A stretch of DNA of 57,637 nt from IMG/VR virus record IMGVR_UViG_3300042328_000814, positions 1-57,637 of that record. The stretch is one strand, 5' to 3'. Source of the DNA: a virus. Both the position numbers and the translations under genes were made by a program. The first letter of the stretch is position 1; each line of letters starts with the position of its first letter. Below are positions 2,149-20,022 of the stretch, one piece after another. The notes under the pieces are model-generated. The model did no database searches. It worked only from the letters and a program-made list of their open reading frames with translations, and had not been told where the DNA came from.

Positions 2149-2251
2149 TCAGTTTCTATCCGAAGCTGGAAACATACTTCTATGGATTATACTTGGTAGT
2201 TTCTTAACTGGTCTAGGTATAGGAATACTTTTAATTGGAGTATTGGGATGA
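2138..2251 (+). CDS. Small single-span membrane protein (37 aa)
   Basis: A short frame begins at an ATG inside the end of the PC4-like gene, with AGAAGGGGAA upstream as ribosome binding site, and ends in an ATGA overlap with the ligase start. After about 12 polar residues the rest is one hydrophobic stretch (ILLWIILGSFLTGLGIGILL), long enough to cross a membrane. Overlap with both neighbours and coherent hydrophobicity support it as real. Function unknown; an inner-membrane role during takeover is possible. Confidence 0.55.
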   Translation: MWSDQFLSEAGNILLWIILGSFLTGLGIGILLIGVLG

Positions 2252-3246
2252 AGTTTGAAGTAGCAAAAGCAGAGCTAATTGATGATTTACTAGTAAAGGC
2301 TTCTAAGGCTTACTACGATGGTGAACCAATTCTATCTGATGAACAGTTTGACTATTTAGCTGATTTAGTAGATTTTAAAGGTTTGGGTGCTAAACCTAGT
2401 GGAGATACTAAGAAACATTATAATCGGATGTTTTCTTTGCAGAAGTATTATGCAAATGAGGGTAAAGTACCTCTGTCAGATTATAAAGGGTTCAAGTACT
2501 TATCACCAAAGCTAGACGGTGCTGCTATCTCTGCACTTTATATTAATAAACAGTTAGTTCAAGTACTAACTCGTGGCGATGGTTTCGAAGGTACAGATAT
2601 TACTGAAAAGTTCTTATTTAGCACTAAACCAGTTCTGCCTAAATCTATCAATATAGATGGGATTGTTCAAGTAACGGGCGAAATCACTACTCTGTCAGAT
2701 GTAGAGAATGCTAGAAACTATGCTTCCGGTGCACTAAACTTGGGCAGTATTGATGAGTTTAATTCTAGGGATTTATACTTTACTGGATACGGATTATACC
2801 CACAGACTCAGACATATGAGTTAGACCTTGAGACACTACGCTTAAATGGTTTTAAGACTGTTGCTGATGAAGATTGGTGCAAACAGTTCGCCACAGATGG
2901 TATCGTTGTACGTATCAATGATACCGAAGACTATAACGCTCTAGGCTTTACAGCTAAACATCCTCGTGGAGCTTATGCTATCAAAGAGCGTAAATTCGGA
3001 GCTATTACTACTCTGCTAGATGTAGAATGGCAAGTAGGTAAGTCAGGCAAGGTGACTCCAGTAGCAATCCTAGAACCTTGTAAGATTGGAGACTCTACAG
3101 TAGCAAGAGCAACCCTAAACAATATAGCCTTTATCGAGTCTTTAGACTTAGAGATCGGTTGTAAAGTAGAGGTACAAAAAATGGGTGATATTATTCCCGG
3201 CATTGTTCGTAGAATCCATGAAAATGATATTGATTTTGTAGAGTAA
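2248..3246 (+). CDS. ligA: NAD-dependent DNA ligase, adenylation and OB domains (subunit A)
   Basis: This is the N-terminal half of a bacterial-type NAD-dependent ligase. Residues about 1-65 carry the NMN-binding domain Ia (YYDGEPILSDEQFDYL). The adenylation motif PKLDGAA places the nucleotidyl lysine at about residue 88, followed by LTRGDG. DGIVVRIN and AYAIKERK are further nucleotidyltransferase motifs, and the last 90 residues form the OB fold. The Zn-finger, HhH and BRCT parts are encoded by the next gene, as in the two-part ligase of phage T5. The two products probably associate to seal nicks in replicating DNA. Start is in an ATGA overlap with the 37-aa gene. Confidence 0.92.
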   Translation: MKFEVAKAELIDDLLVKASKAYYDGEPILSDEQFDYLADLVDFKGLGAKPSGDTKKHYNRMFSLQKYYANEGKVPLSDYKGFKYLSPKLDGAAISALYINKQLVQVLTRGDGFEGTDITEKFLFSTKPVLPKSINIDGIVQVTGEITTLSDVENARNYASGALNLGSIDEFNSRDLYFTGYGLYPQTQTYELDLETLRLNGFKTVADEDWCKQFATDGIVVRINDTEDYNALGFTAKHPRGAYAIKERKFGAITTLLDVEWQVGKSGKVTPVAILEPCKIGDSTVARATLNNIAFIESLDLEIGCKVEVQKMGDIIPGIVRRIHENDIDFVE

Positions 3247-3258
3247 CTACAGTATAAT
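3230..3258 (+). promoter_or_regulatory. Sigma70-like promoter within the end of the ligase subunit A gene
   Basis: TTGATT and TATAAT are separated by exactly 17 bases, and the -10 lies just after the ligase A stop. The block ACAGTATAATATT recurs at 11,641, with a similar downstream leader before another gene. The promoter would start transcription just upstream of the second ligase gene. Confidence 0.62.
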
Positions 3259-3283
3259 ATTTCCTTCTACAGTTGAAAAGCAA

Positions 3284-4045
3284 ATGAAAATAATCCAACC
3301 AGAAAATTGTCCTGTATGTAACTCCAAACTGATTTTGGTAAAAGATCAGTTATTTTGTAGAAATAAGGAGTGCTCAGCCCAAACAGCTAAAAAGCTGGAG
3401 CACTTCTGTAAGACTGTGAAGATGAAAGGTTTTGGGCCAGTAGCACTAAGTAAACTAGATTTTGAATCTATACTAGATATTTATACTTTTAGTGAATCAA
3501 CTTATAAGTTCTTACTTGGAGATACCATTGGAGTGAAACTCTTTAAAGAAGCTAGAATGAGTGAGAAGAACACTGATTTACAGCAAGTCTTAGCAGGATT
3601 AAGTATTCCGTTAGTAGGAGCAACTGCTTCCAGTAAACTTTGTGAGTTTATTGATAGTGTTGATGACATTAATGAGGATTCTTGTAAAGCAGCAGGACTC
3701 GGAGAGAAGGTCACAAACAATCTTCTAGAATATGTTAAATCCGAGGAATTTGGCAGTTTGCAAAAGCTTCTTAGGAAGTTTAAAGTAGGCAGTACCCAGA
3801 AAGTTGAAACACCATCATTAGGTTTGACCGTATGTATTACTGGAAAGCTAAATGATTTCAAGAATAGATCAGAAGCTGGTAAACATCTTACTAGCTTAGG
3901 GTTTACGGTAGTGGACAGTGTAACTAAAGCTACCAACATTTTAATTAACGAAGAAGATAGAGAAAGTTCAAAGCTAACAAAGGCTATATCCCTAGGAATT
4001 AGGGTAACTACTATCAAAGACTTAGAAAAGGAAATAAATAAATGA
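3284..4045 (+). CDS. ligB: NAD-dependent DNA ligase, Zn-finger/HhH/BRCT part (subunit B)
   Basis: This 253-residue protein supplies the C-terminal domains missing from the upstream ligase gene. Cys9, Cys12, Cys25 and Cys30 form the four-cysteine zinc finger. Residues about 40-160 contain helix-hairpin-helix segments (VKMKGFGPVALSKL, LAGLSIPLVGATAS), and residues about 178-253 are a BRCT domain (GLTVCITGKLNDFKNR). It is expected to bind DNA and pair with the adenylation subunit. Its ATG has no clear Shine-Dalgarno; a promoter lies just upstream, so transcripts may have a short leader of roughly 20 bases. Overlaps the next gene as ATGA. Confidence 0.9.
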   Translation: MKIIQPENCPVCNSKLILVKDQLFCRNKECSAQTAKKLEHFCKTVKMKGFGPVALSKLDFESILDIYTFSESTYKFLLGDTIGVKLFKEARMSEKNTDLQQVLAGLSIPLVGATASSKLCEFIDSVDDINEDSCKAAGLGEKVTNNLLEYVKSEEFGSLQKLLRKFKVGSTQKVETPSLGLTVCITGKLNDFKNRSEAGKHLTSLGFTVVDSVTKATNILINEEDRESSKLTKAISLGIRVTTIKDLEKEINK

Positions 4046-4779
4046 CAGTTCAAAAATGGACCGACGAACGTACCGCTATGCTAACCTCACTTGCTGGTGT
4101 TGCTACTCCAGTTAGCGCAGATACCGTAAAGGCCGCTGCCGTAGAATTAGTTTGTAGTGAGCGCTCTGTAGCTGCTAAACTACGTAAGATGGGTTACGAA
4201 GTCGCTTCAATGGCGAAGTCTAGTGCTCCTACCTTCACCGAAGACGAAGCTACTGCTCTAGGAGCTTTCGTTGAAGCCAACAGCGGTGTTCTAACGTATG
4301 CTCAGATCGCTGAAGCCTTCCAAGACGGTGACTTCTCAGCTAAGCAAGTACAAGGTAAGATTCTATCAATGGAACTTACTGCACATGTTAAGCCTACTGA
4401 AAAGGTTGAAGCAGTCCGTACTTACACCGAAGCCGAGGAAACTACTTTCATCAGCATGTGTGCTGGCGGTTCCTTCGTAGAAGACATTGCAACTGCTCTG
4501 AATAAGACTATTAATTCAGTTCGCGGAAAGGCACTTAGTTTACTTCGTAGCGGAGACATTGCAAAGATGCCTGCTCAGAAGGAATCTCATGCTAAGGCAG
4601 AAGCTGATGTTGTTGATACCCTAGGTGACCTAAGCAAACTAACAGTTGCTCAGATTGCTGAGAAGTCTGGAAAGACTGAACGTGGTATCAAGACTCTTCT
4701 AACTCGCCGTGGACTAGTTGCTAGTGACTATGATGGTGCAGCAAAGAAAGCAAAGAACACAGCTAAAGCAGCTGAGTAA
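4042..4779 (+). CDS. Multi-HTH DNA-binding protein, T5 D5-like by position
   Basis: The 245-residue protein is built from repeated helix-turn-helix units. Three begin with an acidic aromatic/Thr signature (KWTDERTAML, TFTEDEATAL, TYTEAEETTF), each followed by a helix pair and a basic recognition helix such as SVRGKALSLL. A fourth unit at the C-terminus reads TVAQIAEKSGKTERGIKTLL. T5 has an abundant DNA-binding protein, D5, at the same place between ligase and helicase. A role in coating DNA or controlling transcription is likely. A strong terminator follows directly, and the gene uses richer, more codon-biased sequence than its neighbours, which fits high expression. Confidence 0.75.
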   Translation: MTVQKWTDERTAMLTSLAGVATPVSADTVKAAAVELVCSERSVAAKLRKMGYEVASMAKSSAPTFTEDEATALGAFVEANSGVLTYAQIAEAFQDGDFSAKQVQGKILSMELTAHVKPTEKVEAVRTYTEAEETTFISMCAGGSFVEDIATALNKTINSVRGKALSLLRSGDIAKMPAQKESHAKAEADVVDTLGDLSKLTVAQIAEKSGKTERGIKTLLTRRGLVASDYDGAAKKAKNTAKAAE

Positions 4780-5146: not shown

Positions 5147-6571
5147 ATGGCAGATATAGGCGCAATAGTACTACATAAAGTATTAGAGGGTAAAGATCTA
5201 TCTGCATTTTCGAGACTGAAGTTAGCTTTTTTCGACTCCTCTTACACTAGCGTATATAGTGCTATTACGAGCCATTACGATAAGTATGGGGCTATACCTA
5301 ATTTTGTTGAACTACTAACAACAGCTAGAAGTAGTGCATTAACGAACGCTTTAACAACACTTCAAAGTCTTGAAATTGAAGATGATATAGATATAGATGT
5401 AGCTGTCGATGCTTTAATAGATAGCTACACACAAAGTGAGGCATTAAAACTACTAGATAAATTCGTAGACAATATCACATTAATGGATAGTCAGGAGATT
5501 AAAGACTCACTATCCGCAGCAGTAATGCATCTAGATGAAAAGACTCATACTAGTGAGACTATTCTAAGTGCTAGCGATATTATGCTATTTAACTCAGTGG
5601 AAGATAAAGAACACTATAAGTTTCCTAGTGGTATATCGAACACAATTGACGCTAAATTGGGTGGATTGTTTAGACAAGAGACTATTCTACTTGGTGGTAA
5701 GCGTGGTGCTGGTAAATCTATTGTATGTGCTAATCTAGTGGAAGCACAGTATTCAATGGGTAACACTTCAGTATACTTTACTATTGAAATGACTGGTAGA
5801 GAAACATTTCAGCGTATCATGGGTATTAATGCTGGAATTCCTCATTCACTACTAAAGCAGGACGCTTTATCAGAAGCAGATATTCTCAAGCTAGTAAAAG
5901 CTAGAGCAGCCATGTACATGGATGCAGATGATTTAGTACAGGAATTTGTTATTAGTGGAGATAGTCTAAAGTTCGAAGGTGACCTAGTTAGAACTAAATT
6001 TCTAAAACCGGATAACCAAATCATTATTATTGATGATAGAGAACTTAGTATTACTGCTATCGACCTGCATATTCAGAAGTTAAAAGCTAAATTCGGAGAT
6101 AAGCTAAAACTAGCCGTTATCGACTACCTAAATCAGATTACAGTACCCGGTATTCCAGGTGGTATGTACGAGTGGACAACTCAGATTTTCGTAAGTAAAA
6201 AACTGAAAGAATTAGCTAGAAAGCACGATATATGCATTGTGTCTCCTTATCAAATTGATGATAATGGTGGTACGCGATTCGCTAAAGGTATTCTTGACTC
6301 TTGTGATATTGCTATGCTACTGGATGCACATGATAAGTCTGATAATACTATATCTTTCGACACTACTAAGATTCGTGGTGGTCCACCTCTTGCATTCAGT
6401 AATGGTATTAATTGGGAAACATTAAAGATTAATCCAGCAGAAACTGATAAGCCACAGAAGAAAGCTAAGAAAGAAAAGGAAGAGGAATCTTCTTATACTG
6501 GAAAAGAAGATGCAAACGATATTGACGCTCCATTCCCTGGAGGAACTAAAATACAAGGTGAAAAATGGTAG
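5147..6571 (+). CDS. Replicative DNA helicase, DnaB/gp41-like
   Basis: A RecA-fold helicase of 474 residues. The N-terminal 150 residues are helical, as in DnaB N-domains. The Walker A motif GGKRGAGKS lies at about residues 183-191, a YFTIEMTG segment follows (DnaB motif H1a), and Walker B KLAVIDYLNQ is near residue 321. SPYQIDDNGG and TKIRGGPP correspond to later DnaB motifs. The last 50 residues are a charged tail rich in Lys and Glu. It would form a ring that unwinds the fork ahead of the polymerase. The next gene encodes primase and overlaps by 7 bases, which suits a coupled primosome. Confidence 0.9.
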   Translation: MADIGAIVLHKVLEGKDLSAFSRLKLAFFDSSYTSVYSAITSHYDKYGAIPNFVELLTTARSSALTNALTTLQSLEIEDDIDIDVAVDALIDSYTQSEALKLLDKFVDNITLMDSQEIKDSLSAAVMHLDEKTHTSETILSASDIMLFNSVEDKEHYKFPSGISNTIDAKLGGLFRQETILLGGKRGAGKSIVCANLVEAQYSMGNTSVYFTIEMTGRETFQRIMGINAGIPHSLLKQDALSEADILKLVKARAAMYMDADDLVQEFVISGDSLKFEGDLVRTKFLKPDNQIIIIDDRELSITAIDLHIQKLKAKFGDKLKLAVIDYLNQITVPGIPGGMYEWTTQIFVSKKLKELARKHDICIVSPYQIDDNGGTRFAKGILDSCDIAMLLDAHDKSDNTISFDTTKIRGGPPLAFSNGINWETLKINPAETDKPQKKAKKEKEEESSYTGKEDANDIDAPFPGGTKIQGEKW

Positions 6572-7428
6572 ACGAAGTAAGAACACTACTCGATAATTTT
6601 GATATTAAGTATATCCCTAGTGGTAGGGATTACTTAATACACTGTTTAAACCCTGAGCATCCGGATAGGAATCCTTCACTTAGAATTGACAAATTGAAGG
6701 GTATAGGCCAGTGTTTATCTTGTGGCTATAAAGTAAACCTATTTAAGCATTTTAATGTCTTTACTGATGGTAAGTCTGCGCAAATTGCTTCCTTAAAGGA
6801 AAAGATTGCGAAATGTATGTCAGATAGTGTAGGACTAAAAATACCTGGTAAAGCTATTCCTTGGAGAGAAGATTACAGGAACATTAAGGCTAGTACGTTT
6901 AGAGAGTTTGATGCTTTCACATACCACGAGGATTTCGGCAATCGCTTAGTATTCCCAATGTATGCTGCCAGTGGCAAGATTGTTGCTTTCAATGGACGTG
7001 CCCTAGGTAACGAGTCTCCTAGATATGATATATATCCGTCACATGTAGAATTACCTATGTTTCCTGGCAGACCTAAACCAGTAAACTCTACTCTAGTACT
7101 AGTGGAAGGTATATTTGACTTCTTAAATCTGCATGATAAAGGATTGACAAACGCAGTAGCCCTTATGGGAGTAACTACTCTACATAACAAGAAAGGCTTG
7201 AATAAGAACAAAATAAACCTATTCAAAATGAGTGGGACTACTAGGATATTCCTATGCCTAGACGCTGATGATGCAGGTAGAAAAGCAACTGAAGAACTAA
7301 AACCATTATTAGAAGCTGAAGGTTTCTATGTTGGTGTAATAGAATTAGAAGACGATAGTGACCCAGGTGAATTAAGTAAATCTGAAGTAGAGTGGGTCAT
7401 TGATTATATAAATGGAAGGCAGTCCTAG
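6565..7428 (+). CDS. DNA primase (zinc-binding and Toprim domains)
   Basis: The N-terminus has a CHC2-like zinc-binding motif (HCLNPEHPDRNPSL followed by QCLSCG, residues about 25-55). Residues about 115-150 resemble the primase catalytic core start (RLVFPMYAASGKIVAFNGR), and the Toprim motifs are visible as LVEGIFDFLNL and LCLDADDAG (acidic metal-binding residues). At 287 residues it lacks room for a DnaG helicase-interaction domain, as usual for phage primases. It should make RNA primers for lagging-strand synthesis with the adjacent helicase. Confidence 0.9.
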   Translation: MVDEVRTLLDNFDIKYIPSGRDYLIHCLNPEHPDRNPSLRIDKLKGIGQCLSCGYKVNLFKHFNVFTDGKSAQIASLKEKIAKCMSDSVGLKIPGKAIPWREDYRNIKASTFREFDAFTYHEDFGNRLVFPMYAASGKIVAFNGRALGNESPRYDIYPSHVELPMFPGRPKPVNSTLVLVEGIFDFLNLHDKGLTNAVALMGVTTLHNKKGLNKNKINLFKMSGTTRIFLCLDADDAGRKATEELKPLLEAEGFYVGVIELEDDSDPGELSKSEVEWVIDYINGRQS

Positions 7429-7447
7429 CCTTAATAAAAGGAGTAAT

Positions 7448-9763
7448 ATGAGAATAGCAGTAATTGAAAAAGGCCCTAGTAATATAAGGTTTAACCAGTA
7501 CTTTCAATTTGAATTTGATCAGTATCAACTATGTAGTGTAAAACTACCTAAAGTTCTAAAGAAAGACGTAGATATTGTAATTGATGAGTCACAATATGAC
7601 TATATAATTACAGTAGGCAGTGAAGCAGCAAAGTACTTTGCCAAGATCACTAGTGTGACCGATTTAGCTGGACACTTAGTAGATGGTAAGTATATTCCAA
7701 TTATTAATCCTATGATGATTACCTTCAAACCAGAAGGTAAACCAGCATTTGAAAAGTCCTTAGAAAGGCTACATAAGGTAGTATCTGGGCAGAATCTAAT
7801 TAATACCACAGGTATTTGGATTGGTATTACAGATTCGGATGAGGCGCTAGAATACTTAAGAAAGATTGATGAGTGGGCTAGTTCAACTAAAGTAATCGCA
7901 CTCGATACTGAAACTACAGCACTTTATCCTACTGACGGCTACGTCCTAGGGATAAGTATCTGCGCGAAATTAGGTAACGCTGCCTATATCTCCACAGAGT
8001 GTGTAAACGAAGAAGTTGAAGCCTTCTTACAGTACTTATTCTATAAGTATACCATAGTATTCCATAACGCAAAATTCGATATTAAGATGTTACGTTATCA
8101 TTTTAATTTCAAATTCCCGTCATTTGAAGATACAATGGTTATCCATTATGTGCTTGATGAAACACAGGGTAGTCATGGCTTGAAGAGCCTAGCACTAAAG
8201 TATACAGATTTTGGTGCTTATGATGACGATCTAGATACCTATAAGAAAGAGTATTGCAGATCACATGGTATTCTAGAATCAGATTTTACGTATGATCTGA
8301 TACCTTTTGAAATCATGGTTCCATATGCTGCTAAAGATACAGGAGTAACTTTAGCACTATACGTTAAGTTTAAGCCAATTATAGATGCTAACCCCAAATT
8401 GTTAAATCTATACAATAATCTTCTTATTCCAGCTCTAACAGCTTTGATTAAGATTGAGCTATCTGGTGTTCCTTTCCATAGAGGTAGACTAGAGTTCGCT
8501 AAGGCTACGATTGATAAGGCTATTAAAGATGCGGAAACTCATCTATATAACCTTCCAGAAGTTAAACAGTTTGAAAAGGATCAGGGCAAAGAGTTTAACC
8601 CAAATAGCGTTCTTCAACTAAGAAAGCTACTATTTGATGCTCTGCAATTAGAACCACTAGCTAAGAAGACTGGAACTGGTCTACAGAGTACAGATGCTGA
8701 AGTTCTGGAAAGTTTGGAAGGTCAGCACGAAGTAGTTAATAGTATTATTGCGATCAGAAAACTTGGTAAAATCAAGAATACTTATGTTGATAATCTACTA
8801 CGTAATCTAGACTCAGATGGTAGAGTTAGAACTGGATTCAATATAACCAGTACAACTTCTGGTAGACTATCAAGTTCTGGTAAATTTAACGCTCAACAGC
8901 TTCCTCGTGATGAGAAGCGCGTAAAAGGAGCCATTAAAGGTTCTGGAAAGCACGAAGGTTGGAAGATAGTTTCTCAGGATTTGGCAACCGCTGAAATGTA
9001 CTATGCAGCGGTTCTATCGGGAGATAAGAAACTTCAGAAGGTTTTCCAAGACAAGGAAGACTTCCATAGTTCTATTGCTAAGCAAGTATTCTCTCTGCCA
9101 TGTTCTGTTGCTGAGGTAAAGAAATTCTTCAAAGATAAGCGTCAAGCTGCTAAGGCTATCTCATTCGGTATCCTTTACGGTTCGGGTGCTCGTAAAGTAT
9201 CTGATACAGTATCCAAGGACTCAGATACACACTTCTCTCTAGAAGATGCGCAGGAATCTATTGACTTATACTTCAGTACGTTTAGTCAGCTAAAGAAATG
9301 GCTGAAGGGTACGGAGGAACTTATTAAGAAGCAAGGTTTCTTATACACCTCTGTTGGCCGGAAGCGTAGGCTTAAGAACGTATTTAGTCCTGATAAAGGT
9401 ATTGCATCACATGAAATCAGAAGTGGTATTAATGCCGCAGTACAGTCCCTAGCCTCTGATATTAATCTATTTGCTGTTATTGATATGATGGCTGAGATTA
9501 AGAAGCATAAGCTACGTGCTGAGATTTTCATGATGGTGCATGACTCTATTGTGGCTATTGTACACCCGGACGATGTAGAGAAGTACTGTGAATTACTAGC
9601 TATGTGTACTCAGAAGGATAGAGGTTTCTCTATTCCAGGCTGCCCAATCGGTATTGACCAAGAAGTTGGTGATGACTACTCATTCGATAGCTGGGAGGAT
9701 GAGTGGAGGGAGTGCTACGATGATTTTATCCAAAGTAGTATGGCCGGTTTACCAACTGAGTAA
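7448..9763 (+). CDS. Family A DNA polymerase with 3'-5' exonuclease (T5 type)
   Basis: 771 residues from the ATG at 7448, chosen because AAAAGGAGTAAT sits right before it; an in-frame upstream ATG at 7412 overlaps primase and has no such site. The proofreading exonuclease shows DTETT (Asp153/Glu155), HNAKFD and YAAKD. The polymerase has motif A QDLATAEMYYAAVLSG (Asp511), motif B RQAAKAISFGILYGSG and motif C VHDS (Asp699). The DLATAE form, in place of the usual DYSQIE, and HDS in place of HDE are like T5 polymerase. No 5' nuclease domain is present; a separate flap endonuclease is encoded at 16,771. Confidence 0.95.
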   Translation: MRIAVIEKGPSNIRFNQYFQFEFDQYQLCSVKLPKVLKKDVDIVIDESQYDYIITVGSEAAKYFAKITSVTDLAGHLVDGKYIPIINPMMITFKPEGKPAFEKSLERLHKVVSGQNLINTTGIWIGITDSDEALEYLRKIDEWASSTKVIALDTETTALYPTDGYVLGISICAKLGNAAYISTECVNEEVEAFLQYLFYKYTIVFHNAKFDIKMLRYHFNFKFPSFEDTMVIHYVLDETQGSHGLKSLALKYTDFGAYDDDLDTYKKEYCRSHGILESDFTYDLIPFEIMVPYAAKDTGVTLALYVKFKPIIDANPKLLNLYNNLLIPALTALIKIELSGVPFHRGRLEFAKATIDKAIKDAETHLYNLPEVKQFEKDQGKEFNPNSVLQLRKLLFDALQLEPLAKKTGTGLQSTDAEVLESLEGQHEVVNSIIAIRKLGKIKNTYVDNLLRNLDSDGRVRTGFNITSTTSGRLSSSGKFNAQQLPRDEKRVKGAIKGSGKHEGWKIVSQDLATAEMYYAAVLSGDKKLQKVFQDKEDFHSSIAKQVFSLPCSVAEVKKFFKDKRQAAKAISFGILYGSGARKVSDTVSKDSDTHFSLEDAQESIDLYFSTFSQLKKWLKGTEELIKKQGFLYTSVGRKRRLKNVFSPDKGIASHEIRSGINAAVQSLASDINLFAVIDMMAEIKKHKLRAEIFMMVHDSIVAIVHPDDVEKYCELLAMCTQKDRGFSIPGCPIGIDQEVGDDYSFDSWEDEWRECYDDFIQSSMAGLPTE

Positions 9764-9791
9764 GTATATTGAGACCAAGGAGTATAATAAC

Positions 9792-10241
9792 ATGCTTCTT
9801 GGTCGTAATTCCGCAGAAGATGACTTTAGATTAATAGATGACAGATCAAGGGATTCACCTTCCCTTGGTTTGCGCCGTATTAAGTATGAATCAAGCCCAA
9901 GTATTGAAGGGTACAAATTATACAAGCTATCTACACCAATCTATAAATACTCTAGCTTAATACTACTAACCCACAAATCTAGTAAGTTTATAGATTTCTC
10001 TGGTAAAGTATTTAATTATGTAAAGAGTATGCGAGTACCTCTCAAATACCATAAGATTACTAGGTATACTCAGGTAGATCATGGCTATCTGGTTCACTTA
10101 TATGGAATTCATTGTTCCTTCTATATAAATTATGAGCCAGCTTTAGAGGTTAAATACGCTGGGCTTCTACATGTAGGTAGGGGGTATGTTCTTTATTCAT
10201 TAGAGGAGTCTAAGTTACCAGACACTAGGAGGATAATATGA
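9792..10241 (+). CDS. Hypothetical protein between polymerase and SF2 helicase (149 aa)
   Basis: Not recognised. The start at 9792 is chosen because CCAAGGAGTATAATAAC precedes it; longer in-frame starts would lie inside the polymerase gene. The protein is rich in Tyr, Ser and basic residues (for example SMRVPLKYHKITRYTQ), predicted mixed beta, without membrane segments or known motifs. It ends in an ATGA overlap with a tiny membrane-protein gene. A role tied to replication is suggested only by its position. Confidence 0.68.
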   Translation: MLLGRNSAEDDFRLIDDRSRDSPSLGLRRIKYESSPSIEGYKLYKLSTPIYKYSSLILLTHKSSKFIDFSGKVFNYVKSMRVPLKYHKITRYTQVDHGYLVHLYGIHCSFYINYEPALEVKYAGLLHVGRGYVLYSLEESKLPDTRRII

Positions 10242-10333
10242 TAGATTTGATGGTAAATATATTAGCTATTTTAGGTGGGTTACTTATAGCTTTGTATATA
10301 ATAAACATTGTTGGAGTTATTAGTGGCGCGTAA
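10238..10333 (+). CDS. Small single-span membrane protein (31 aa)
   Basis: A short frame with a perfect AGGAGG site (10,227-10,232) and an ATGA overlap with the upstream stop. Almost the whole product is hydrophobic (ILAILGGLLIALYIINIVG), enough for one transmembrane helix. Its end overlaps the helicase start by 11 bases. It resembles in plan the 37-aa product at 2138-2251. Function unknown; the strong ribosome binding site is the main support. Confidence 0.58.
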   Translation: MIDLMVNILAILGGLLIALYIINIVGVISGA

Positions 10334-11621: not shown

Positions 11622-11640
11622 GAGATTTTATTTTTCAATT

Positions 11641-12036: not shown

Positions 12037-12670
12037 ATTTGCTAATACTAAAGGCGCTGCAATTAAAGGCGCAGAAGCTTACACTTACAAAGATGGCGAG
12101 AATACTATTCGTATCTTTGGAGACGTTCTACCACGTTACCTATACTGGATTAAAGGCAAGAACAATAAAGATATTCCTCTAGAATGTCTTTCTTTTGATC
12201 GTGAGAAAGAAAAGTTCACCAATAAAGAAAAAGATTGGGTTAAAGAGTATAATCCAGAACTAAAGTGTGGTTGGGCTTACTGTGTAATGGGATACTCCCT
12301 AGCAGATAAGAAACCCGTAGTAGTTAATCTTAAGAAAAAGTTATTTGAACAGATTCTTAGTGCTGCTGAAGACTTAGGTGATCCTACCGATCTAGATACT
12401 GGTTGGGATATTGTCTTTAAGCGCGCAAAGACTGGAGCTCAGGCTTTCAATGTAGAATACACTCTAAGTGTACTACGTTGCAAAAATCGTCCTCTATCAG
12501 AAGAAGAACGTGCTCTAGTAGCCTCTGCTAAAACTGTTGATGAACTTGTTCCTCGTCTATCCCCTGACGAACAGAAGTCTTTCCTAGACAGTCTGAAGGC
12601 TGATTCTGATAGTGCTAACGAAGTACCTCCAGAAGTAGCTGCTGAACAGGTTGATGACATTCCGCAGTAA
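12026..12670 (+). CDS. ssb: Single-stranded DNA-binding protein
   Basis: 214 residues from the ATG at 12,026 (site GAGGAAATACAAA). The body has an OB-like pattern of strands (IRIFGDVLPRYLYWIKG, then GWAYCVMGYSLADKKPVVVN and a VEYTLSVLRC strand). The C-terminal 40 residues are acidic and unstructured, finishing in VDDIPQ, close to the DDIPF tail by which SSBs recruit partners. The position before the SbcD-like gene corresponds to the T5 D11 region. It would coat ssDNA at forks. A UUCG-loop terminator follows directly. Confidence 0.8.
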   Translation: MALKFANTKGAAIKGAEAYTYKDGENTIRIFGDVLPRYLYWIKGKNNKDIPLECLSFDREKEKFTNKEKDWVKEYNPELKCGWAYCVMGYSLADKKPVVVNLKKKLFEQILSAAEDLGDPTDLDTGWDIVFKRAKTGAQAFNVEYTLSVLRCKNRPLSEEERALVASAKTVDELVPRLSPDEQKSFLDSLKADSDSANEVPPEVAAEQVDDIPQ

Positions 12671-12676
12671 AAGATA

Positions 12677-12700
12677 TAAAAGCTCCTTCGGGAGCTTTTA
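12677..12700 (+). terminator. Rho-independent terminator with UUCG tetraloop
   Basis: TAAAAGCTCC and GGAGCTTTTA form a perfect 10-bp stem with the very stable C(UUCG)G loop, just 6 bases after the SSB stop. The T run is within the 3' arm, so termination may be partial and allow read-through into the recombination genes. Confidence 0.8.
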
Positions 12701-12715
12701 TTGCCTGGAGAACAT

Positions 12716-12907
12716 ATGAGAGAGCAAAAAATAACTTTTACTTATGGAGAATTGATTGAAGCATTCAATGAGTGGAATAAAATATTAGAGCAAGATAAAG
12801 TACCAGAAAGGCCTACAGGTAATACCTGGGGCGAAATGTTTACTAATTATCTTATTACTTCTGTCAATAAGATAAGGGCCGAGAAGCTTACTAGCTATAG
12901 ACAATGA
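12716..12907 (+). CDS. Hypothetical small protein (63 aa)
   Basis: Not recognised. The ATG at 12,716 follows CTGGAGAAC at good spacing; an in-frame TTG at 12,701 overlaps the terminator and is less likely. The protein is soluble and mostly helical, and includes an LIEAFNEWNKIL segment. It overlaps the SbcD-like gene by 4 bases and so is probably translated with the recombination nuclease. Confidence 0.64.
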   Translation: MREQKITFTYGELIEAFNEWNKILEQDKVPERPTGNTWGEMFTNYLITSVNKIRAEKLTSYRQ

Positions 12908-13854
12908 AAATACTATTCACAGCCGATTGGCATATTAAACTTAATCAGAAAAACGTACCTATCGACTGGCAAAGGAATAGGTATTTAGAATTAGTACAGC
13001 AACTTAATAAGATTATAGTTTATCAAGAAATTAAACTTGTAGTGATCGGTGGAGATATATTTGACAGGGTGCCAACTATTGAAGAATTAGAGCTTTATTT
13101 TGAACTTATAGAGGCTTTAAACTGTATGGTAGATATAATCATTTACCCCGGTAACCATGAGGCTGTAAAAAAGCATACTACTTTCTTATCTAGACTTATA
13201 GCTATAACTTCCACCATTAATTCTAGAATAATTATTCTAGATGACTATTACAATATAGATAATATGGACTTTATTCCATATAATAAGTTGAAAGATAAAT
13301 GGCCGGAGTTTAGTGGTAATATACTATTTACTCACGTTAGAGGTGAAATCCCTCCACACGTTAAGCCGGAAGTAGACTTAGATTTGTTTAATAGATGGGA
13401 GCTTGTATTAGCTGGTGATTTACATTCACATAGTAATTGTCAGCGTAATATTGCTTACCCAGGTTCTCCCTTAACTACAAGTTTCCATAGAAATGAAGTA
13501 GAGACTGGTGTAATAATTCTAGACTCTAAAACTGCTGACTGGCAATTTGAAAATCTTTGGCTACCACAACTATTAAGGAAGACTGTATCTAGTCCAGAAG
13601 AAATGATTCCTACAGATTATCATCATACTATATATGAAATCGAAGGCGATGTTGGTGATTTAGCTAATATCAAGAACTCTGAACTATTAGACAAAAAGAT
13701 TGTAAAACGCGAACATAAGTCAAGACTATCTCTCAATAATTTAAGTATAGAGGAGGAGCTTAGACTATACTTAGATCAGGTACTAGAAATATCAAATATT
13801 GATGAAATATTGAGAGGAGCAAATGATTACATTAAAGACATTAACTTGGAGTAA
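12904..13854 (+). CDS. SbcD/Mre11-like nuclease subunit (T5 D12-like)
   Basis: A calcineurin-type metallophosphoesterase of 316 residues. The metal-binding motifs appear in order: FTADWHIK, GGDIFDR, YPGNHE, a TH in LFTHVRG and AGDLHSHSN. The rest is a capping domain followed by a C-terminal acidic helix (IEEELRLYLDQV) likely to bind the ATPase subunit. It pairs with the next gene, whose start lies 32 bases inside this frame, and would process DNA ends and hairpins during phage recombination, as T5 D12 does with D13. Confidence 0.9.
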   Translation: MKILFTADWHIKLNQKNVPIDWQRNRYLELVQQLNKIIVYQEIKLVVIGGDIFDRVPTIEELELYFELIEALNCMVDIIIYPGNHEAVKKHTTFLSRLIAITSTINSRIIILDDYYNIDNMDFIPYNKLKDKWPEFSGNILFTHVRGEIPPHVKPEVDLDLFNRWELVLAGDLHSHSNCQRNIAYPGSPLTTSFHRNEVETGVIILDSKTADWQFENLWLPQLLRKTVSSPEEMIPTDYHHTIYEIEGDVGDLANIKNSELLDKKIVKREHKSRLSLNNLSIEEELRLYLDQVLEISNIDEILRGANDYIKDINLE

Positions 13855-15631
13855 CTTATTCTCCTATGGTGCAGGGAATACAATTTCATTAAGTGAAGAA
13901 CCAATTACACAGCTAGTTGGGTTAAATGGTCATGGAAAGTCAAGTATTCCACTTGTACTAGAAGAAGTCTTGTTTAATAAGAATTCTAAAGGTATTAAGA
14001 AAGGCGACGTAGTTAATAGGCAACTAGATACTAATAAGTACTCTGGTGCTTGTTCTTTCTCAATCTTTGATAAAGAATATCAAATGTCAATTGATAGGTC
14101 TGGTGCTACCCAAAAAGTAAAACTAGTTGAAGATGGGGTAGATATTTCTAGTCATACGGCTACAGCTACTTTTGCTCAGCTAGAGGATTTATTTGGTGTG
14201 GATGCTAAGACTTTTAGCCAGTTAGTGTATCAAAATAGTGGGTCATCTTTACAGTTTCTGACTGCTACAGATAGTAATAGAAAGAAGTTTCTAATTGATC
14301 TACTATCACTAGATAGGTACATAAGTATCTTTGAGCGAGTGAAAGTAGCACACAAAGAGGTATCTGATAAGCTATTACAACTTGGAGCCAAAGAAGCTAC
14401 TGTGCGCAGTTGGCTGGAGACTGCTGGTAAGACAGTCCTGACAGAAATTGCGTTAGCCACAGTACCGCCGTTAGATAGTACAAAAGCGACCCAATTGGGA
14501 ACATTAAAAGCACAGCTAGCAGAAATTAATAGTATAAATTCGAAAATTAGTGCCAATAATCTGTACAAAAAGAAAATTTCGTCTATTGATTCATCAGCAT
14601 TAGTAAGTACAAAAGCGATCATTTCTACAAAACAGTTAGAACAGCAACGTGCCGAAGTTCAGCTAGAAATAAAACAGTATGCTACCATTACTAAAAAATA
14701 TTCTGGATTAACTAGTGGTGAGTGTCCTACGTGTACGCAGCCAATTGATACTGAGCGAATTAAAGCTATTGTAGATGATGCTCATGCATTATCAGCTATT
14801 AAACAAGCCACAGAGAAACGTATTCTAGAAGAAATAGCTTTAGCAGAAGCTAATAATAAAGAAGTTTCTGCTCATCAAGCATTAGTTAAGGAGTTTGAGC
14901 AGTTATCAATACTAATTGATAAAACTCTACCAGAATTAACTTTAGATAAAGATGAACTTGATACTAAAATTGTTGAGTTGCAGGAATATATAACCTCTAT
15001 AAATGATAGTATAGCTAAGGTTACTAAGTTTAATAATGTTGCCTCTGCGACTAATGCTAAGGTTGCTGCAATTAAAGAACAGTTAGCTAATTATACGAGT
15101 GAGCTAGAAGTGATTTCTACTGATATAGCTAAATTAGAGAAATCCTTCTCTGTACTAGAAGTTTTGAAGAAAGCTTTTAGTACTACTGGGCTAATTGCAT
15201 ATAAGATTGAGAATTCTGTAAAAGAGCTAGAGGCTCTTACAAATGAGTACTTGTCTGAACTTAGTGATGGTCGTTTTGAACTACTATTTGTTCTAGAAAA
15301 GGATAAACTTAATATAGTAATTGTAGACAATGGCAAAGAAATTGAAATTACTGCACTTTCTGCAGGTGAGCTTGCTAGAGTAACTACTAGCACACTTCTT
15401 GCTATTAGAAAGTTAATGTCTAGCCTATCTAAGTCACGTATCAATATATTGTTTCTTGATGAAGTCATTGATGTGCTCGATACCTATGGTAAGGAAAAGT
15501 TGATTGAAGTTCTTCTAAAAGAAGATGGTCTTAATACCTTCCTAATATCACACTCATACTCCCACCCTCTAGTAAAAAGATTAGAAGTTATAAAAGAAGA
15601 AGGTATTTCGAGGTTGAATTATGGTTCCTAA
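13823..15631 (+). CDS. SbcC/Rad50-like ATPase subunit (T5 D13-like)
   Basis: 602 residues with the split ATPase of the SMC/Rad50 family. Walker A GLNGHGKSS is near residue 35, the signature LSAGELARV and Walker B ILFLDEVIDVLD are near the C-terminus, and long coiled-coil arms lie between. The zinc hook is CPTC at about residue 304-307. The arms are short compared with cellular SbcC, as typical of phage forms. The start at 13,823 has a GAGAGGAGC site. It forms the end-processing nuclease with the upstream subunit. Confidence 0.9.
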   Translation: MITLKTLTWSNLFSYGAGNTISLSEEPITQLVGLNGHGKSSIPLVLEEVLFNKNSKGIKKGDVVNRQLDTNKYSGACSFSIFDKEYQMSIDRSGATQKVKLVEDGVDISSHTATATFAQLEDLFGVDAKTFSQLVYQNSGSSLQFLTATDSNRKKFLIDLLSLDRYISIFERVKVAHKEVSDKLLQLGAKEATVRSWLETAGKTVLTEIALATVPPLDSTKATQLGTLKAQLAEINSINSKISANNLYKKKISSIDSSALVSTKAIISTKQLEQQRAEVQLEIKQYATITKKYSGLTSGECPTCTQPIDTERIKAIVDDAHALSAIKQATEKRILEEIALAEANNKEVSAHQALVKEFEQLSILIDKTLPELTLDKDELDTKIVELQEYITSINDSIAKVTKFNNVASATNAKVAAIKEQLANYTSELEVISTDIAKLEKSFSVLEVLKKAFSTTGLIAYKIENSVKELEALTNEYLSELSDGRFELLFVLEKDKLNIVIVDNGKEIEITALSAGELARVTTSTLLAIRKLMSSLSKSRINILFLDEVIDVLDTYGKEKLIEVLLKEDGLNTFLISHSYSHPLVKRLEVIKEEGISRLNYGS

Positions 15632-16151
15632 TATATTAACTCAAGAGAGTCTGAAAGGTATATTGTACTATGATGAGAATACCGGGGAGTTTATTAATAA
15701 AACTAGTAGGGGTAGGTCTAAAAAAGGTAGTAAAGCTGGCTCTGTAAAAAAAGATAGTGGATATATAACTATAAGTATAGACAGCAAAGGTTATTATGCT
15801 CATAGATTGGCTTGGTTATACATTTATGGTGAAATTCCGAATGGTGAGCTAGATCATATAGATGGTAATAAGACTAATAACAGAATTGGTAATTTAAGAT
15901 TATGTACTCATCGTAATAATGTATTCAATTCTATTAAAGGAAATACTACCTATTATAGAGGAGTAGCTAAGAATAGATCCAGGTATAGAGCGCGTATACA
16001 AGTAGATGGTAATTATATAGATTTAGGTACTTATAATACTCCAGAAGAAGCTTCTATGGCTTATGAGATAAAAGCAAAGGAACTACATGGAGAATTCTAC
16101 TTAAATCCTAAGTATACCTATAATATAGAAGAGGTTATTAATGGCAGTTGA
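15621..16151 (+). CDS. HNH homing endonuclease with AP2 domain
   Basis: 176 residues. The central HNH core reads AHRLAWLYIYGEIP, then LDHIDGNKTNNRIGNLR and THRNN, which supply the metal- and DNA-binding residues. The C-terminal part (about 110-155) is an AP2-type DNA-binding domain (YYRGVAKNRSRYRARIQV). Such free-standing endonucleases spread by cutting alleles that lack them. It sits between the D13-like and D14-like genes, which are adjacent in T5, overlapping both neighbours by about 11 bases, so it was inserted without disrupting them. Confidence 0.9.
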   Translation: MVPNILTQESLKGILYYDENTGEFINKTSRGRSKKGSKAGSVKKDSGYITISIDSKGYYAHRLAWLYIYGEIPNGELDHIDGNKTNNRIGNLRLCTHRNNVFNSIKGNTTYYRGVAKNRSRYRARIQVDGNYIDLGTYNTPEEASMAYEIKAKELHGEFYLNPKYTYNIEEVINGS

Positions 16152-16599
16152 TAGTAGAGCAAAGGGCGCGAGGGCTGAGACAGTTGTTAGGGATGAGCTA
16201 CGAAAGTTAACAGGATTGCAATGGGAGCGTATTCCTGCTTCTGGAGCACTTTCGGCAGTTCACCAACTTAAAGGTGATTTATACATACCGGGGGAGTATA
16301 ATCATTACTGCGTAGAAGTCAAACATTACGCAGAAGATCAATTATCTTCTACTTATCTAACTGGTGTGAATCCGCAGCTTTCTCAATTTTGGGAACAAAC
16401 AGTTAGAGAATCTGGTCAGGTTAATAAGAAACCTTTATTAATTTATAAGTATGATAGATCTAAACTATATGCCTGTATGGACGATTTATTAGTAGATCAG
16501 AAAAGTTACCCTCACCGCTATTTGTATAGTCATGAAGGATTTTATATTACTAGGCTAGAACAATGGATTGACTTTTGTAAACCGGAGTGGATTAAATGA
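16141..16599 (+). CDS. PD-(D/E)XK nuclease, Holliday-junction resolvase-like (T5 D14-like)
   Basis: 152 residues. The N-terminal helix has KGARAETVV with the family Glu, followed by PASGA, KGDLYIP (Asp) and CVEVKHY (the E-x-K pair). This is the PD-(D/E)XK arrangement found in Hjc-type resolvases and Vsr-like nucleases. It lies at the position of T5 D14, between SbcC and the flap endonuclease genes. Resolution of branched DNA before packaging is a likely role, but the exact substrate cannot be read from sequence. Confidence 0.74.
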   Translation: MAVDSRAKGARAETVVRDELRKLTGLQWERIPASGALSAVHQLKGDLYIPGEYNHYCVEVKHYAEDQLSSTYLTGVNPQLSQFWEQTVRESGQVNKKPLLIYKYDRSKLYACMDDLLVDQKSYPHRYLYSHEGFYITRLEQWIDFCKPEWIK

Positions 16600-16778
16600 G
16601 TTATAAACTACTTGATCAGGATTCTTTTGAATATAGAAAATTACTTGAAGAATTCCCAAATAATGCTCCTTTTTACTACTATGAATCTGAAGGCGACTAT
16701 TATAATAGAGCATTTACAGAGTTTTTCAATAGATACCAAAAATCAATTAAAGTAAAGGTACACGACTATTATGGTTGA
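16596..16778 (+). CDS. Hypothetical small protein (60 aa)
   Basis: Not recognised. The frame overlaps both neighbours (4 and 8 bases). It is aromatic-rich, with Tyr/Phe clusters such as APFYYYESEGDYYNRAF, and ends with a basic segment. No membrane segment is visible. Overlap with the resolvase-like and flap nuclease genes suggests cotranslation. Confidence 0.62.
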   Translation: MSYKLLDQDSFEYRKLLEEFPNNAPFYYYESEGDYYNRAFTEFFNRYQKSIKVKVHDYYG

Positions 16779-17640
16779 AGAAATTGACGAATTAGACCAA
16801 CTTAGTACTAAATCTACTAAATCCTTTGCATCAATGTCTAAGAAGAATGAAAATATAGTTATGGTTGTAGATGCTTTGAACTTAGCTTTTCGCTATTTAC
16901 ATAGTGGTCAACTTGACTTTGCTAATGAATATTTAAAAACTGTACAAAGTTTAGCACAAAGCTATGCTGCTGGTAAAATAATTATAGCATGTGATAAAGG
17001 TTCTTCTTCTTATAGAAAAGCTATATATCCAGAATATAAAGCTAATAGAAAAGAAAAGTATGAGGTTCAAACTGAAGAAGAAAAAGCTAAGTTTGATAGA
17101 TTCTTCAAAGATTTTGAAGATACATTAACCTTATTATCAGAATATTATGAGGTTTTACGATATGAAAATGTTGAAGCAGATGATATTGCAGCTTATATTG
17201 TTGCTAATTATAATCATGAGCATATTTGGCTTATATCTTCTGATAAAGACTGGGACTTACTCGTATCCCCTTCCGTTTCAAGGTTTAGTTACGTAACTAG
17301 AAAAGAAATAACGGAAGATAATTGGCCATATGATTGTAGTAAAGAAAATTATCTTGGACTTAAATGTTTACAAGGTGATTCTGGTGATAATATAAAAGGC
17401 ATAGAGGGCATTGGCCCAAAGCGAGCAACTACTCTATTAGAACAATATGATGATATTTTTAGTATTATTGACCTATTACCATTACCTGGTAAACAAAAAT
17501 TTATACAAAACCTCAATGCGTCTAGTTCGTTGCTAGAACTTAACTTAAAACTTATGGATTTACCAACTTATTGTGAAGAAGCTATTGGTGAAGAAAACTT
17601 GCAAGATATCAACAGGAGACTAAAAATTGTTATTAATTGA
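16771..17640 (+). CDS. 5'-3' flap endonuclease/exonuclease (T5 D15-like)
   Basis: 289 residues of the FEN family. Acidic metal-binding motifs are VVDALN, IIACDKGSSSYRKAIYPEYK (with the conserved basic helical arch following), VEADDIAAYI and SSDKDWDLL. An H3TH DNA-binding segment reads QGDSGDNIKGIEGIGPKRA. The polymerase at 7,448 lacks this domain, so this enzyme should remove primers and flaps, as T5 D15 does. The first 22 residues are a Ser/Thr-rich extension; a later ATG at residue 22 is possible. Overlaps dUTPase by 14 bases. Confidence 0.92.
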   Translation: MVEEIDELDQLSTKSTKSFASMSKKNENIVMVVDALNLAFRYLHSGQLDFANEYLKTVQSLAQSYAAGKIIIACDKGSSSYRKAIYPEYKANRKEKYEVQTEEEKAKFDRFFKDFEDTLTLLSEYYEVLRYENVEADDIAAYIVANYNHEHIWLISSDKDWDLLVSPSVSRFSYVTRKEITEDNWPYDCSKENYLGLKCLQGDSGDNIKGIEGIGPKRATTLLEQYDDIFSIIDLLPLPGKQKFIQNLNASSSLLELNLKLMDLPTYCEEAIGEENLQDINRRLKIVIN

Positions 17641-18055
17641 ATATAATACAGAAGATATTAACTTAATGCCATCTAGAGCACACGCTACAGATGCTGGAGC
17701 AGATTTGAAGGCTGCGGAAGCATATACTATTAGACCACATACAGCAGAACTAGTAGATACTGGTGTTAGAGTGGCAGTACCCCATGGGTACTTTGGATTG
17801 CTGGTTAGCAGGTCTGGTCATGGAAAACAACGCATTTCACTAGCTAATCGTGTTGGTATTATTGATTCTGACTATCGTGGTAATATTATGGTTAGACTAG
17901 AAAACTTAGGAGATAATGACTTTGTTATTAATCGTCTAGATCGTATTGCTCAATTAATAATTATTCCTTGTTTGCTACCAGACTTTGTTTTATCTGATAC
18001 ATTAGATGAAACTGAGCGTGGTGAAAATGGATTTGGTAGTACTGGAGTATCTTAA
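17627..18055 (+). CDS. dut: dUTPase (dUTP diphosphatase)
   Basis: 142 residues, the usual size for trimeric dUTPase. All five family motifs are visible: HATDAGADLKA, SRSGHG, GIIDSDYRGNI, DRIAQLII and the C-terminal RGENGFGSTG that closes over the active site. It converts dUTP to dUMP and PPi, keeping uracil out of DNA and feeding thymidylate synthesis. It abuts the ribonucleotide reductase gene as TAATG, so the two nucleotide enzymes are probably cotranslated. T5 also has dut right after D15. Confidence 0.95.
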   Translation: MLLIEYNTEDINLMPSRAHATDAGADLKAAEAYTIRPHTAELVDTGVRVAVPHGYFGLLVSRSGHGKQRISLANRVGIIDSDYRGNIMVRLENLGDNDFVINRLDRIAQLIIIPCLLPDFVLSDTLDETERGENGFGSTGVS

Positions 18056-20022
18056 TGTATCAAGCATCAACTAGAGCGGCCGTTATAACTAGAAGAACCT
18101 ATAACCGTCCATTAAATGACGAAGGAACAGTATTTGAGACTTGGAAGCTTACTGTAGCGCGTGTTATTGACCATCAACAATGGTTATGGGAACGTGCCAA
18201 AGGTTCAGAACTAAACGATGCAGAATTTGCAGAATTATATGAACTAGAAGAACTAATGCTAGACCGTAAAGTTTCTATGAGTGGTCGTACTTTATGGCTT
18301 GGTGGCACACAAATATCAAAATATAGAGAGGCTAGTCAGTTTAATTGTTCCTATACTAATATTGAAACAGTATATGACATAGTAGACAGTCTATGGCTAC
18401 TACTACAAGGGTGTGGTTTAGGTGTAAGACCTATTGTAGGTACTTTAAATGGCTTCGTTAACCCTATAGAAGATATCCAGATAATTCCTAGTACTAGAAC
18501 GACCAAGGGTGGATTAGAGTATAATGAAGAATTTTGGGATGTAGAAACTGGTATTTGGCGTATTAAAATTGGTGACTCAGCAGAAGCATGGGCTAAATCA
18601 ATTGGTAAGTTAATTGCTGGTAAGTATCCAGCAAAGACATTAATTCTAGACTTCTCAGAGTTACGTCCTGCAGGTGAAAGATTAAAAGGTTATGGATGGA
18701 TTAGCTCTGGTTATTTTGCCATAGCTAAAGCATATAAAGCTATTGCAGAGATTCTATCATCTAAGGCAGATTCCTTATTATCTAGAATAGATATTATGGA
18801 CATTATTAACTGGCTAGGTACTATTCTTAGTAGTCGTAGAAGTGCTGAAATTGTTATTTTTGAATATGGTCAGCCAGAGTGGGAAGAGTTTGCAGTAGCT
18901 AAGAAAGATTGGTGGTTACATGATAATGCTCATAGAACACAATCTAATAACTCTCTATTGTTCAAAGAAAAACCTACTATTAAGGAACTTACTAAGCTAT
19001 TCCAAATTATGGAAGAAGCAGGTGGTTCTGAGCCAGGTTTTATTAATGGTGAAGAGGCTTTGCGCCGAGCTCCCTGGTTCCAAGGTTGTAATCCATGTGT
19101 AGAGATTTTACTTGGATCTAAATCTTTCTGTAACCTTACAGAGATTGACATTGGTAAATTTAAAAAGAATGCTTCTGGTCTACATAGAGCAGCATATCTA
19201 GCTGCTAGAGCTAATTATAGGCAGACTTGTGTAAACTTAAAAGATGGTATTCTACAAGAATCATGGCATCTTAATAATGCTTTCTTAAGGTTATGTGGTG
19301 TTGGTCTAACTGGTATTGCTAAGCGTCCAGACATGAAGGCGTATGATTATCAATATCTACAGCGTACTGCTACTTCTGCTGCAATCGGTATGGCAGATGA
19401 ACTTAAGCTACCACATCCAAAGAATGTAACAACAGTGAAACCTTCAGGAACCTTATCCAAGATTATGGATACAACAGAAGGTGCTCATATGCCATTAGGT
19501 AAGTACATTTTTAATAATGTACAGTTTAGTAAGTTTGATCCTGTAGTAGAAAAGCTACGTAATGCAAATTACAATGTAATTAATCATCCAACAGATGATT
19601 CAGGAGTTCTAGTTACTTTCCCTGTTAAATGGGATGATGTACCTTTTCATAAAGCAAATGGAAAAGAAGTTAATTTAGAGTCTGCTATCGATCAGTTAGA
19701 AAGGTACAAATTACTACAGAAAAACTGGACTCAGCAAAATACTTCTGTGACCATTAGTTATGATCCATCTGAAGTAGAAGGAATTGTTCAGTGGTTATAT
19801 GATAATTGGGATATTTATGTAGGTGTTAGTTTCTTATATAGAACTGACCCAACTAAGACAGCTAAAGACTTAGGATACTTATATTTACCTCAAGAAGTAG
19901 TAACTGAAGATGAGTATAATAGGTATGTAGCAACATTACTAGAAGTAGACTTAGAGGATGCTAACTCCTTTGAAGAATTAAGAGATGAAGGATGTGCCAC
20001 TGGTGCATGCCCAATTAGGTAA
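18055..20022 (+). CDS. Class II ribonucleoside-triphosphate reductase (B12-dependent)
   Basis: 655 residues of the monomeric adenosylcobalamin-dependent type. Cys98 (FNCSYTN), Cys348 with Glu350 (NPCVEIL) and Cys359 (SFCNLTE) match, in spacing, the substrate-site and radical cysteines of the Lactobacillus leichmannii enzyme. The tail pair Cys647/Cys652 (GCATGACPIR) has the same 5-residue spacing as its re-reducing cysteines. TVKPSGTLSKI is the phosphate-binding loop. It is shorter than that enzyme (739 residues), so some surface or allosteric segments are missing. Unlike T5, which has NrdA/NrdB, this phage uses an oxygen-independent enzyme that needs host cobalamin. Confidence 0.92.
   Translation: MYQASTRAAVITRRTYNRPLNDEGTVFETWKLTVARVIDHQQWLWERAKGSELNDAEFAELYELEELMLDRKVSMSGRTLWLGGTQISKYREASQFNCSYTNIETVYDIVDSLWLLLQGCGLGVRPIVGTLNGFVNPIEDIQIIPSTRTTKGGLEYNEEFWDVETGIWRIKIGDSAEAWAKSIGKLIAGKYPAKTLILDFSELRPAGERLKGYGWISSGYFAIAKAYKAIAEILSSKADSLLSRIDIMDIINWLGTILSSRRSAEIVIFEYGQPEWEEFAVAKKDWWLHDNAHRTQSNNSLLFKEKPTIKELTKLFQIMEEAGGSEPGFINGEEALRRAPWFQGCNPCVEILLGSKSFCNLTEIDIGKFKKNASGLHRAAYLAARANYRQTCVNLKDGILQESWHLNNAFLRLCGVGLTGIAKRPDMKAYDYQYLQRTATSAAIGMADELKLPHPKNVTTVKPSGTLSKIMDTTEGAHMPLGKYIFNNVQFSKFDPVVEKLRNANYNVINHPTDDSGVLVTFPVKWDDVPFHKANGKEVNLESAIDQLERYKLLQKNWTQQNTSVTISYDPSEVEGIVQWLYDNWDIYVGVSFLYRTDPTKTAKDLGYLYLPQEVVTEDEYNRYVATLLEVDLEDANSFEELRDEGCATGACPIR

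Follow-up and report, generated by a model that had tools for sequence, protein, structure and literature searches.

The closest described counterparts of the tail considered here are that of Escherichia phage T5 and the tail tips of phages such as lambda and T1. The end of the T5 tube is described as comprising a pb6 trimer, a p140 trimer, a pb9 hexamer and a pb3 trimer, with the C-terminus of the tape-measure protein pb2 in pb3. In T5, lambda and 80alpha alike, the trimeric C-terminus of the tape measure is reported to interact tightly with the hub (PMC11784142); in the lambda-like tip of T1 a hexameric distal protein mediates the change from sixfold to threefold symmetry (PMC11945409), and p140 and p132 are given as a landmark of the Demerecviridae (PMC10038345). 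Protein-level mosaicism of phages, tape measures included, has already been published (PMC10684548). Here we analyse the IMG/VR record IMGVR_UViG_3300042328_000814, 57,637 bases from an uncultivated virus of bacteria (below, the window). We consider it highly likely that its backbone is that of a T5-type phage, from the replisome and neck to the pb6-type tube, the chaperones and the front of the tape measure (and, on the contig of a close relative, the capsid), that its tip is lambda-type (M', M, L, K, I and J), and that this tip and the docking end of the tape measure form an exchangeable cassette. The window appears to be a metagenomic fragment of a longer genome, because its close relative G001 (77,048 bases; also listed as L147) runs past its right end, where it carries a T5-type capsid gene (75882-77048 of G001, E 1e-45). 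All the relatives discussed below are metagenomic contigs.

Shaft, tip and the tape measure between them

T5 reference proteins, translated from AY587007, were compared with the window by blastp and phmmer. The genes of the neck and shaft, all on the minus strand, are of T5 type: a head completion protein like that of T5 ORF137 (47461-48030; phrog_442), a p143-like protein (45929-47461), a tail terminator of p142 type (45425-45856; E 6e-21 to p142 in the PDB), a tube protein of pb6 type (44021-45370; E 1.4e-43 to pb6 in the PDB) and two tail assembly chaperones, of ORF132 (43553-43975) and ORF131 type (43215-43511; PHROGs). The tape-measure gene follows (37830-43205). Beyond it, and likewise on the minus strand, stand M' (37490-37837; phrog_14, Pfam Phage_min_tail 6.7e-19), a second M-like protein that adjoins the tape measure; the distal tail protein M (37146-37493; phrog_14, 2.9e-28); the tip hub protein L (36430-37149), the NlpC/P60 tip protein K (35751-36464) and the tip protein I (34759-35754), each with PHROGs and lambda matches; and J, the central tail fibre or host specificity protein (30221-34774; phrog_31 2.8e-255, lambda J 7e-120). 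Matches to lambda are confined to these six genes, in order, from 37837 to 30221, and by blastp lambda U, V, G, T and H have no match in the window at E 1e-3. The Demerecviridae feature of a T5-type tube with a p142 terminator is present, and the T5 tip, with its p140/p132 collar, pb9 and pb3, has no match in the window; pb4 and pb5 have none either, and only 45 bases separate the tube and chaperone genes, with no space for p140.

An earlier note on this DNA had paired the T5-type replisome with a late tail module that follows lambda from U to J. The order terminator, tube, chaperones, tape measure, M, L, K, I, J does equal that of lambda, and M, L, K, I and J bear the note out. The genes it called U, V, G/T and H, however, match T5 p142, pb6, ORF132/ORF131 and pb2, and the order of the first four genes is common to T5 and lambda, so that transfer of a whole lambda-type module is refuted for the proximal tail and, taken as a whole, is scarcely credible. 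The large-scale modular exchange that the note proposed is real, but replication and tail are not what its boundary separates: the T5 type extends from the neck through tube and chaperones into the front of the tape measure, and the tail resembles that of T5 more than that of lambda in its shaft but not in its tip.

At the level of sequence comparison, the join lies inside the gene for the tape measure, the protein that sets tail length. The part that matches T5 pb2 amounts to the first ~330 residues, with alignments to T5 pb2 or to the T5-tube relatives under comparison at residues about 67-363; residues about 1647-1789 align, among those relatives, only with the lambda-tip carriers G002, G003 and G005 besides the near relative G001. 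The last 180 residues match 26 named records, including phages SSU5, nickie, ANB28 and L338C, and an annotated lambda-type tip lies downstream of the tape measure in all four of the named records inspected (in nickie, the tip queries matched J and one other tip gene only). G004 (also listed as L154) ceases to resemble the window at 42,181, within the tape-measure gene, and has tip genes of DUF2460, phiJL001_Gp84_N/BR0599 and NlpC/P60 type, a set that we take to resemble gene transfer agents (GTAs). The tip of L228 resembles that of the window, M' included (77.7% from 38,165 on); M' was not found in G001 or in L142-L146.

These observations are consistent with a mechanism in which recombination would exchange the whole set of tip genes together with the tape measure's C-terminal end, as one cassette. 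The N-terminal part of the tape measure would pair with the T5-type chaperones and tube, and its C-terminal ~140 residues would dock in the tip hub. If such a docking match is needed, a tip could be replaced only together with its matching docking end. An M hexamer could cap the pseudo-sixfold pb6 rings in place of the pb9 hexamer of T5, and M' may, speculatively, supply a second ring. Phages may swap tail tips in this way, and perhaps hosts too. The arrangement bears on how a pb6 tube, which is threefold and pseudo-sixfold, could accept an M hexamer.

Recombinant contigs and the distribution of tips

Five contigs, L142-L146, are 96.7-98.9% identical in nucleotide sequence to the window down to 37,819, and in the tip the identity falls to ~64-66%. 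L146 equals the window (identity 1.00 in 500-base steps) from 50.4 kb to about 38.7 kb. A stretch of 7,442 bases that begins in its tape measure and takes in the tip is 98.5% identical to G001; in the neck, tube and tape-measure front the identity of L146 to G001 is mostly 0.4-0.9. Identity in fine steps places the crossover at 38240-38360 (minus strand; tape-measure residues about 1616-1656), and L142-L145 break at the same place. The five contigs look like natural recombinants; each has its own metagenome number, though all five numbers may come from a single study. Similarity between the window and G001 resumes at 21,717, on the far side of the tip; the exchanged block therefore spans about 21.7 to 38.3 kb and includes genes of tail-fibre type (22215-30218, minus strand; PHROGs tail families).

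It could be argued that no recombination took place and that selection on host range merely speeds up the evolution of the tip genes, since J and the fibres are expected to be variable on general grounds. But the change affects M, L, K and I in addition to J, and L146 agrees with the window up to and including the tube but with G001 in the tip, the step falling within 120 bases; unless L146 is itself a chimeric contig, this explanation is refuted for it, and we regard it as extremely improbable.

When IMG/VR viral contigs were scanned with a seven-sequence alignment of pb6-type proteins, at least 567 relatives were found, of which the best 80 were kept. A lambda-type M or L lies downstream of the tube in 20 of these 80 loci, from many metagenomes, and the whole contigs G001, G002 and G003 show the same arrangement. 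Among the other loci of the 80 are tips of DUF2460/NlpC type, of T5 type (pb9/pb3) and of no assigned class, and many contigs stop too soon for the tip to be judged. (The tip labels 'GTA', 'DUF2460', 'X3' and 'NlpC-fused' are working names, unlike the labels lambda and T5.) The C-terminal domain of the tape measure goes with the tip: across 25 T5-tube loci whose tape measure is complete and is followed by 2 kb or more of sequence, and which are not independent of one another, domain and lambda tip are both present in 15 and both absent in 10, with no discordant case. Outside the T5-tube set, 53 lambda-tip loci extend 4 kb or more upstream of L; the domain is found in 29 of them, and a T5 front or tube in none. 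The T5 front was found in 63 of 63 tape measures, a count that is partly circular because the genes were retrieved by whole tape-measure queries.

Tip types are scattered on the tree of tube proteins (28 rows, after removal of near-identical tubes and of loci in which no tip type was recognised), so that the ancestral tip state cannot be read from it. The lambda state requires 8 changes, at least 6 of them forced by the starred branches; a single clade of the 15 lambda rows is rejected (p = 0.00024, approximately unbiased test, p-AU), and L197, with a lambda tip, and L198, an IMG/VR contig with a T5 pb9 and pb3 tip, are sisters (100/100). A limited pool of lambda-type tips may thus have moved repeatedly among T5-tube phages.

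Several results weigh against the reading of an exchangeable cassette. Searched as exact strings, 60- and 43-base pieces of the window's tip occur in no other IMG/VR contig (near-identical records may be omitted from that collection), which leaves the join of the window itself, at about 38.24 kb, without an independent copy. The C-terminal domain is undetected in 24 of the 53 lambda-tip loci outside the T5-tube set, and lambda gpH has no match to it; the idea of a docking domain therefore rests on one tape-measure family. Finally, on the gpL tree (55 rows) the 16 T5-tube rows need 5 changes, yet their union in one clade is allowed (p-AU 0.093). A single origin of T5-tube gpL is accordingly not rejected, and no number of outside acquisitions is put forward here. 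The first gpL tree left out near-copies and short rows; the second left out L228, L197 and 40 rows with an unknown or flagged tube, SSU5 and Vibrio phage P2 among them.

The unreplicated join, together with the identical stretches of ~2 kb that contigs share within the tape measure, would suit an artefact in which metagenomic assembly fused T5-type and lambda-type pieces. We consider this very unlikely, as the pairing recurs in a quarter of the best tube loci and in three whole contigs, and the same break is seen in five contigs with five metagenome numbers. A less remote but still unlikely alternative is that the direction was the reverse: the lambda-type tip would be old in the T5-tube lineage, the Demerecviridae would have gained the pb9/pb3 tip later, and T5 itself would be a derived hybrid. 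Such a history could explain why the pb6-type matches listed from the phage collection (60 best and 60 spread over 903 records) are T5-like phages of ~90-130 kb and a few short fragments, while IMG/VR holds many T5-tube phages with other tips and the T5-tube gpL may form one clade. Against it stand the pb9 and pb3 tip of L198 and the scatter of tip types on the tube tree. We retain the exchangeable cassette on a T5-type backbone as the best account. The gene identities, the chimeric tape measure, the association of its C-terminus with lambda tips and the recombinant contigs are results of sequence comparison; docking, the stacking of rings, any effect on host range and the direction of transfer are inferred.

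p143 and the role of the tape measure

The p143-like protein of the window consists of a conserved C-terminal domain, which is the segment that matches T5 p143 (Pfam PF25747, 5e-10; hidden Markov model), and a long extra N-terminal part that varies strongly among near relatives, with nucleotide identity between the window and G001 at ~0.4 in this stretch. With a profile grown from T5 p143, the domain was found in 19 of 20 listed loci with lambda tips, 3 of 3 of DUF2460 type, 3 of 4 'NlpC-fused', 4 of 4 'X3' and 2 of 2 with T5 tips; in these counts G001 and L147 are one contig, and so are G004 and L154. It is therefore present in 29 of the 31 listed loci with non-T5 tips, though the T5 hub that lies under p143 is absent there. 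Judged by this distribution, p143 follows the tube, which bears on its unexplained placement, by cryo-EM, at the base of pb3 in T5 (PMC11784142).

We somewhat favour a more general proposal, in which the tape measure would act as a tail adaptor of siphophages, its N-terminal part specifying the tube and its C-terminal ~140 residues the tip. Through crossovers at the boundary, a T5-type tube could be fitted with any of at least four tip machines that are unrelated to one another (T5, lambda, DUF2460/GTA-like and others), traded among co-occurring phages, and p143, since it follows the tube, would have a core role independent of the tip.

Replisome, capsid and comparison with known systems

The plus-strand genes from ligase to dut keep the order of T5: ligA, ligB, D5, helicase, primase, polymerase, D10-5', D10 helicase, D10-3', D11, D12, D13, D14, D15 and dut. 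They comprise a split NAD-dependent DNA ligase (2248-3246 and 3284-4045; PHROGs, 43.6% identical to T5 ligA and 37.5% to ligB), a D5-like transcription regulator (4042-4779; phrog_323, 52.6% to T5 ORF109), a DnaB-type replicative helicase (5147-6571), a primase (6565-7428), a family-A DNA polymerase (7412-9763; 45.9% to that of T5), genes like D10-5', D10 helicase, D10-3' and D11 (9654-12670), the SbcD/SbcC-like exonuclease subunits D12 and D13 (12904-15631), and a RusA-like D14, the D15 flap exonuclease and dUTPase (16141-18055). The helicase, the primase and the genes after the polymerase were assigned by PHROGs and T5 matches, D10-5' matching T5 by phmmer only (8e-6). Synteny extends upstream of the ligase genes to homologues of T5 ORF104, ORF102, ORF105 and ORF106 (598-2148, plus strand; blastp 4.8e-19, 1.8e-28, 3e-7 and 7e-14), the first two in swapped order.

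The polymerase has the DLATAE motif at residue 523. Its 60 best matches among cultured phages are all T5-like, at about 45-46% identity, and in a spread of 50 rows T5-like phages at 39-46% are followed by rows at 31% or less; that of G004 is 94% identical. On a tree of 16 rows, nine IMG/VR polymerases including that of the window fall into a single clade (95/97). Its sister group consists of T5 with three further phages, all Demerecviridae or T5-like (support 85/90), and three distant outgroups stand on long branches. By megablast against phages, positions 8000-20000 gave no match. The T5-type replisome, its gene order and the DLATAE motif, all named in the earlier note, are borne out by protein matches, synteny and this tree. 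The T5 region drawn there from 2248 to 20022 holds through dut only: 18055-20022 (plus strand) encodes a class II ribonucleotide reductase (RNR; phrog_367), which is not a T5 gene at this place and whose best named matches, at 60-70% identity, are from marine and spring-water phages (a Manatee Spring phage, 69.6%; two oyster-derived phages; roseophages). The Manatee Spring phages were rejected as relatives, since ctwe8250 has the same RNR but is a podovirus record, as was phiPMW, which has a lambda-type tip and no T5 tube match.

An HNH endonuclease gene (15621-16151) between D13 and D14 is probably a mobile, homing-type gene; it was not found at this place in G001 and adjoins D12 in G004. Insertions of ~1.2-1.4 kb split the RNR gene of G004 (contig L115, 25276-28406) and the polymerase gene of G021 (contig L137, 42027-45543), suggesting introns or inteins.

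Relatives other than G001 carry a T5-type portal, protease and large terminase subunit (TerL). In five of them a single open reading frame (ORF) of 638-660 amino acids has matches to the prohead protease as well as to the major capsid protein (MCP) of T5, which are separate genes in that phage (G002, 40191-42125; G003, 55130-57064; G007, 55752-57734; G008, 39821-41737; G021, 89857-91776). Between neck and capsid, positions 48469-54916 of the window hold genes for proteins of 178, 460 and 1340 amino acids beside genes for 162 and 890, perhaps a mobile virion-fibre cassette. The 460-residue gene (49015-50397) was considered as major capsid and rejected, with no sequence or credible fold support (top Foldseek TM score about 0.14) and with the T5-type MCP further right on G001. 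It occurs in 62 IMG/VR loci, many without a T5 polymerase or pb6 tube and some adjoining lambda-type terminase and portal genes; in G004 no counterpart of the 178, 460, 1340 or 162 gene was found. At the right end, a tandem array with a 198-base unit (55301-56183; 4.5 copies, 91% matches) lies inside a large minus-strand ORF, and its copy number may differ in G001.

Pre-early A1, A2 and dmp, for two-step DNA entry, are a hallmark of the Demerecviridae; with obp, they were not detected in the window or nine relatives (G001-G008 and G021), all incomplete contigs.

Modular evolution of phages is well known; the pairing of T5 tube with lambda tip and its precise join are new, no published description of a T5-type tube with a lambda-type tip having been found among the titles and abstract openings surveyed. 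By name, none of the best 40 of 1,487 gpL matches in the phage collection is evidently a T5-like phage. The boundary described here is more specific and more informative than that of the earlier note, yet it is a variant of known phage mosaicism. What it offers is a narrowing of the statement that phages are mosaic to a testable structural rule, which names the site where a tail could be cut and rejoined and the piece of the tape measure that would have to travel with the tip.

With T5 the window shares the order of the replisome, the head-completion protein, p143, p142, pb6, both chaperones and the tape-measure front, and its relatives the MCP (G001) and portal, protease and TerL (others). 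It differs from T5 in lacking matches to pb9, pb3, pb4, p140 and pb5 and in the class II RNR after dut, and five relatives differ in their fused protease and MCP. With lambda, T1 and SSU5 it shares M, L, K, I and J in order; it differs in that the tip sits on a pb6-type tube, M is duplicated, and the tape-measure end is like that of SSU5, with no match to lambda gpH. In Salmonella phage SSU5, Stenotrophomonas phages ANB28/BUCTxx99, Pseudomonas phage nickie and Rhizobium phage L338C the stretches examined have no T5 tape-measure front and no pb6-type tube, the weak pb6 matches of SSU5 being attributed to its annotated Ig domains. It is at the other end that these phages and the window meet: the C-termini of their tape measures are 43-52% identical to that of the window, and a lambda-type tip comes next.

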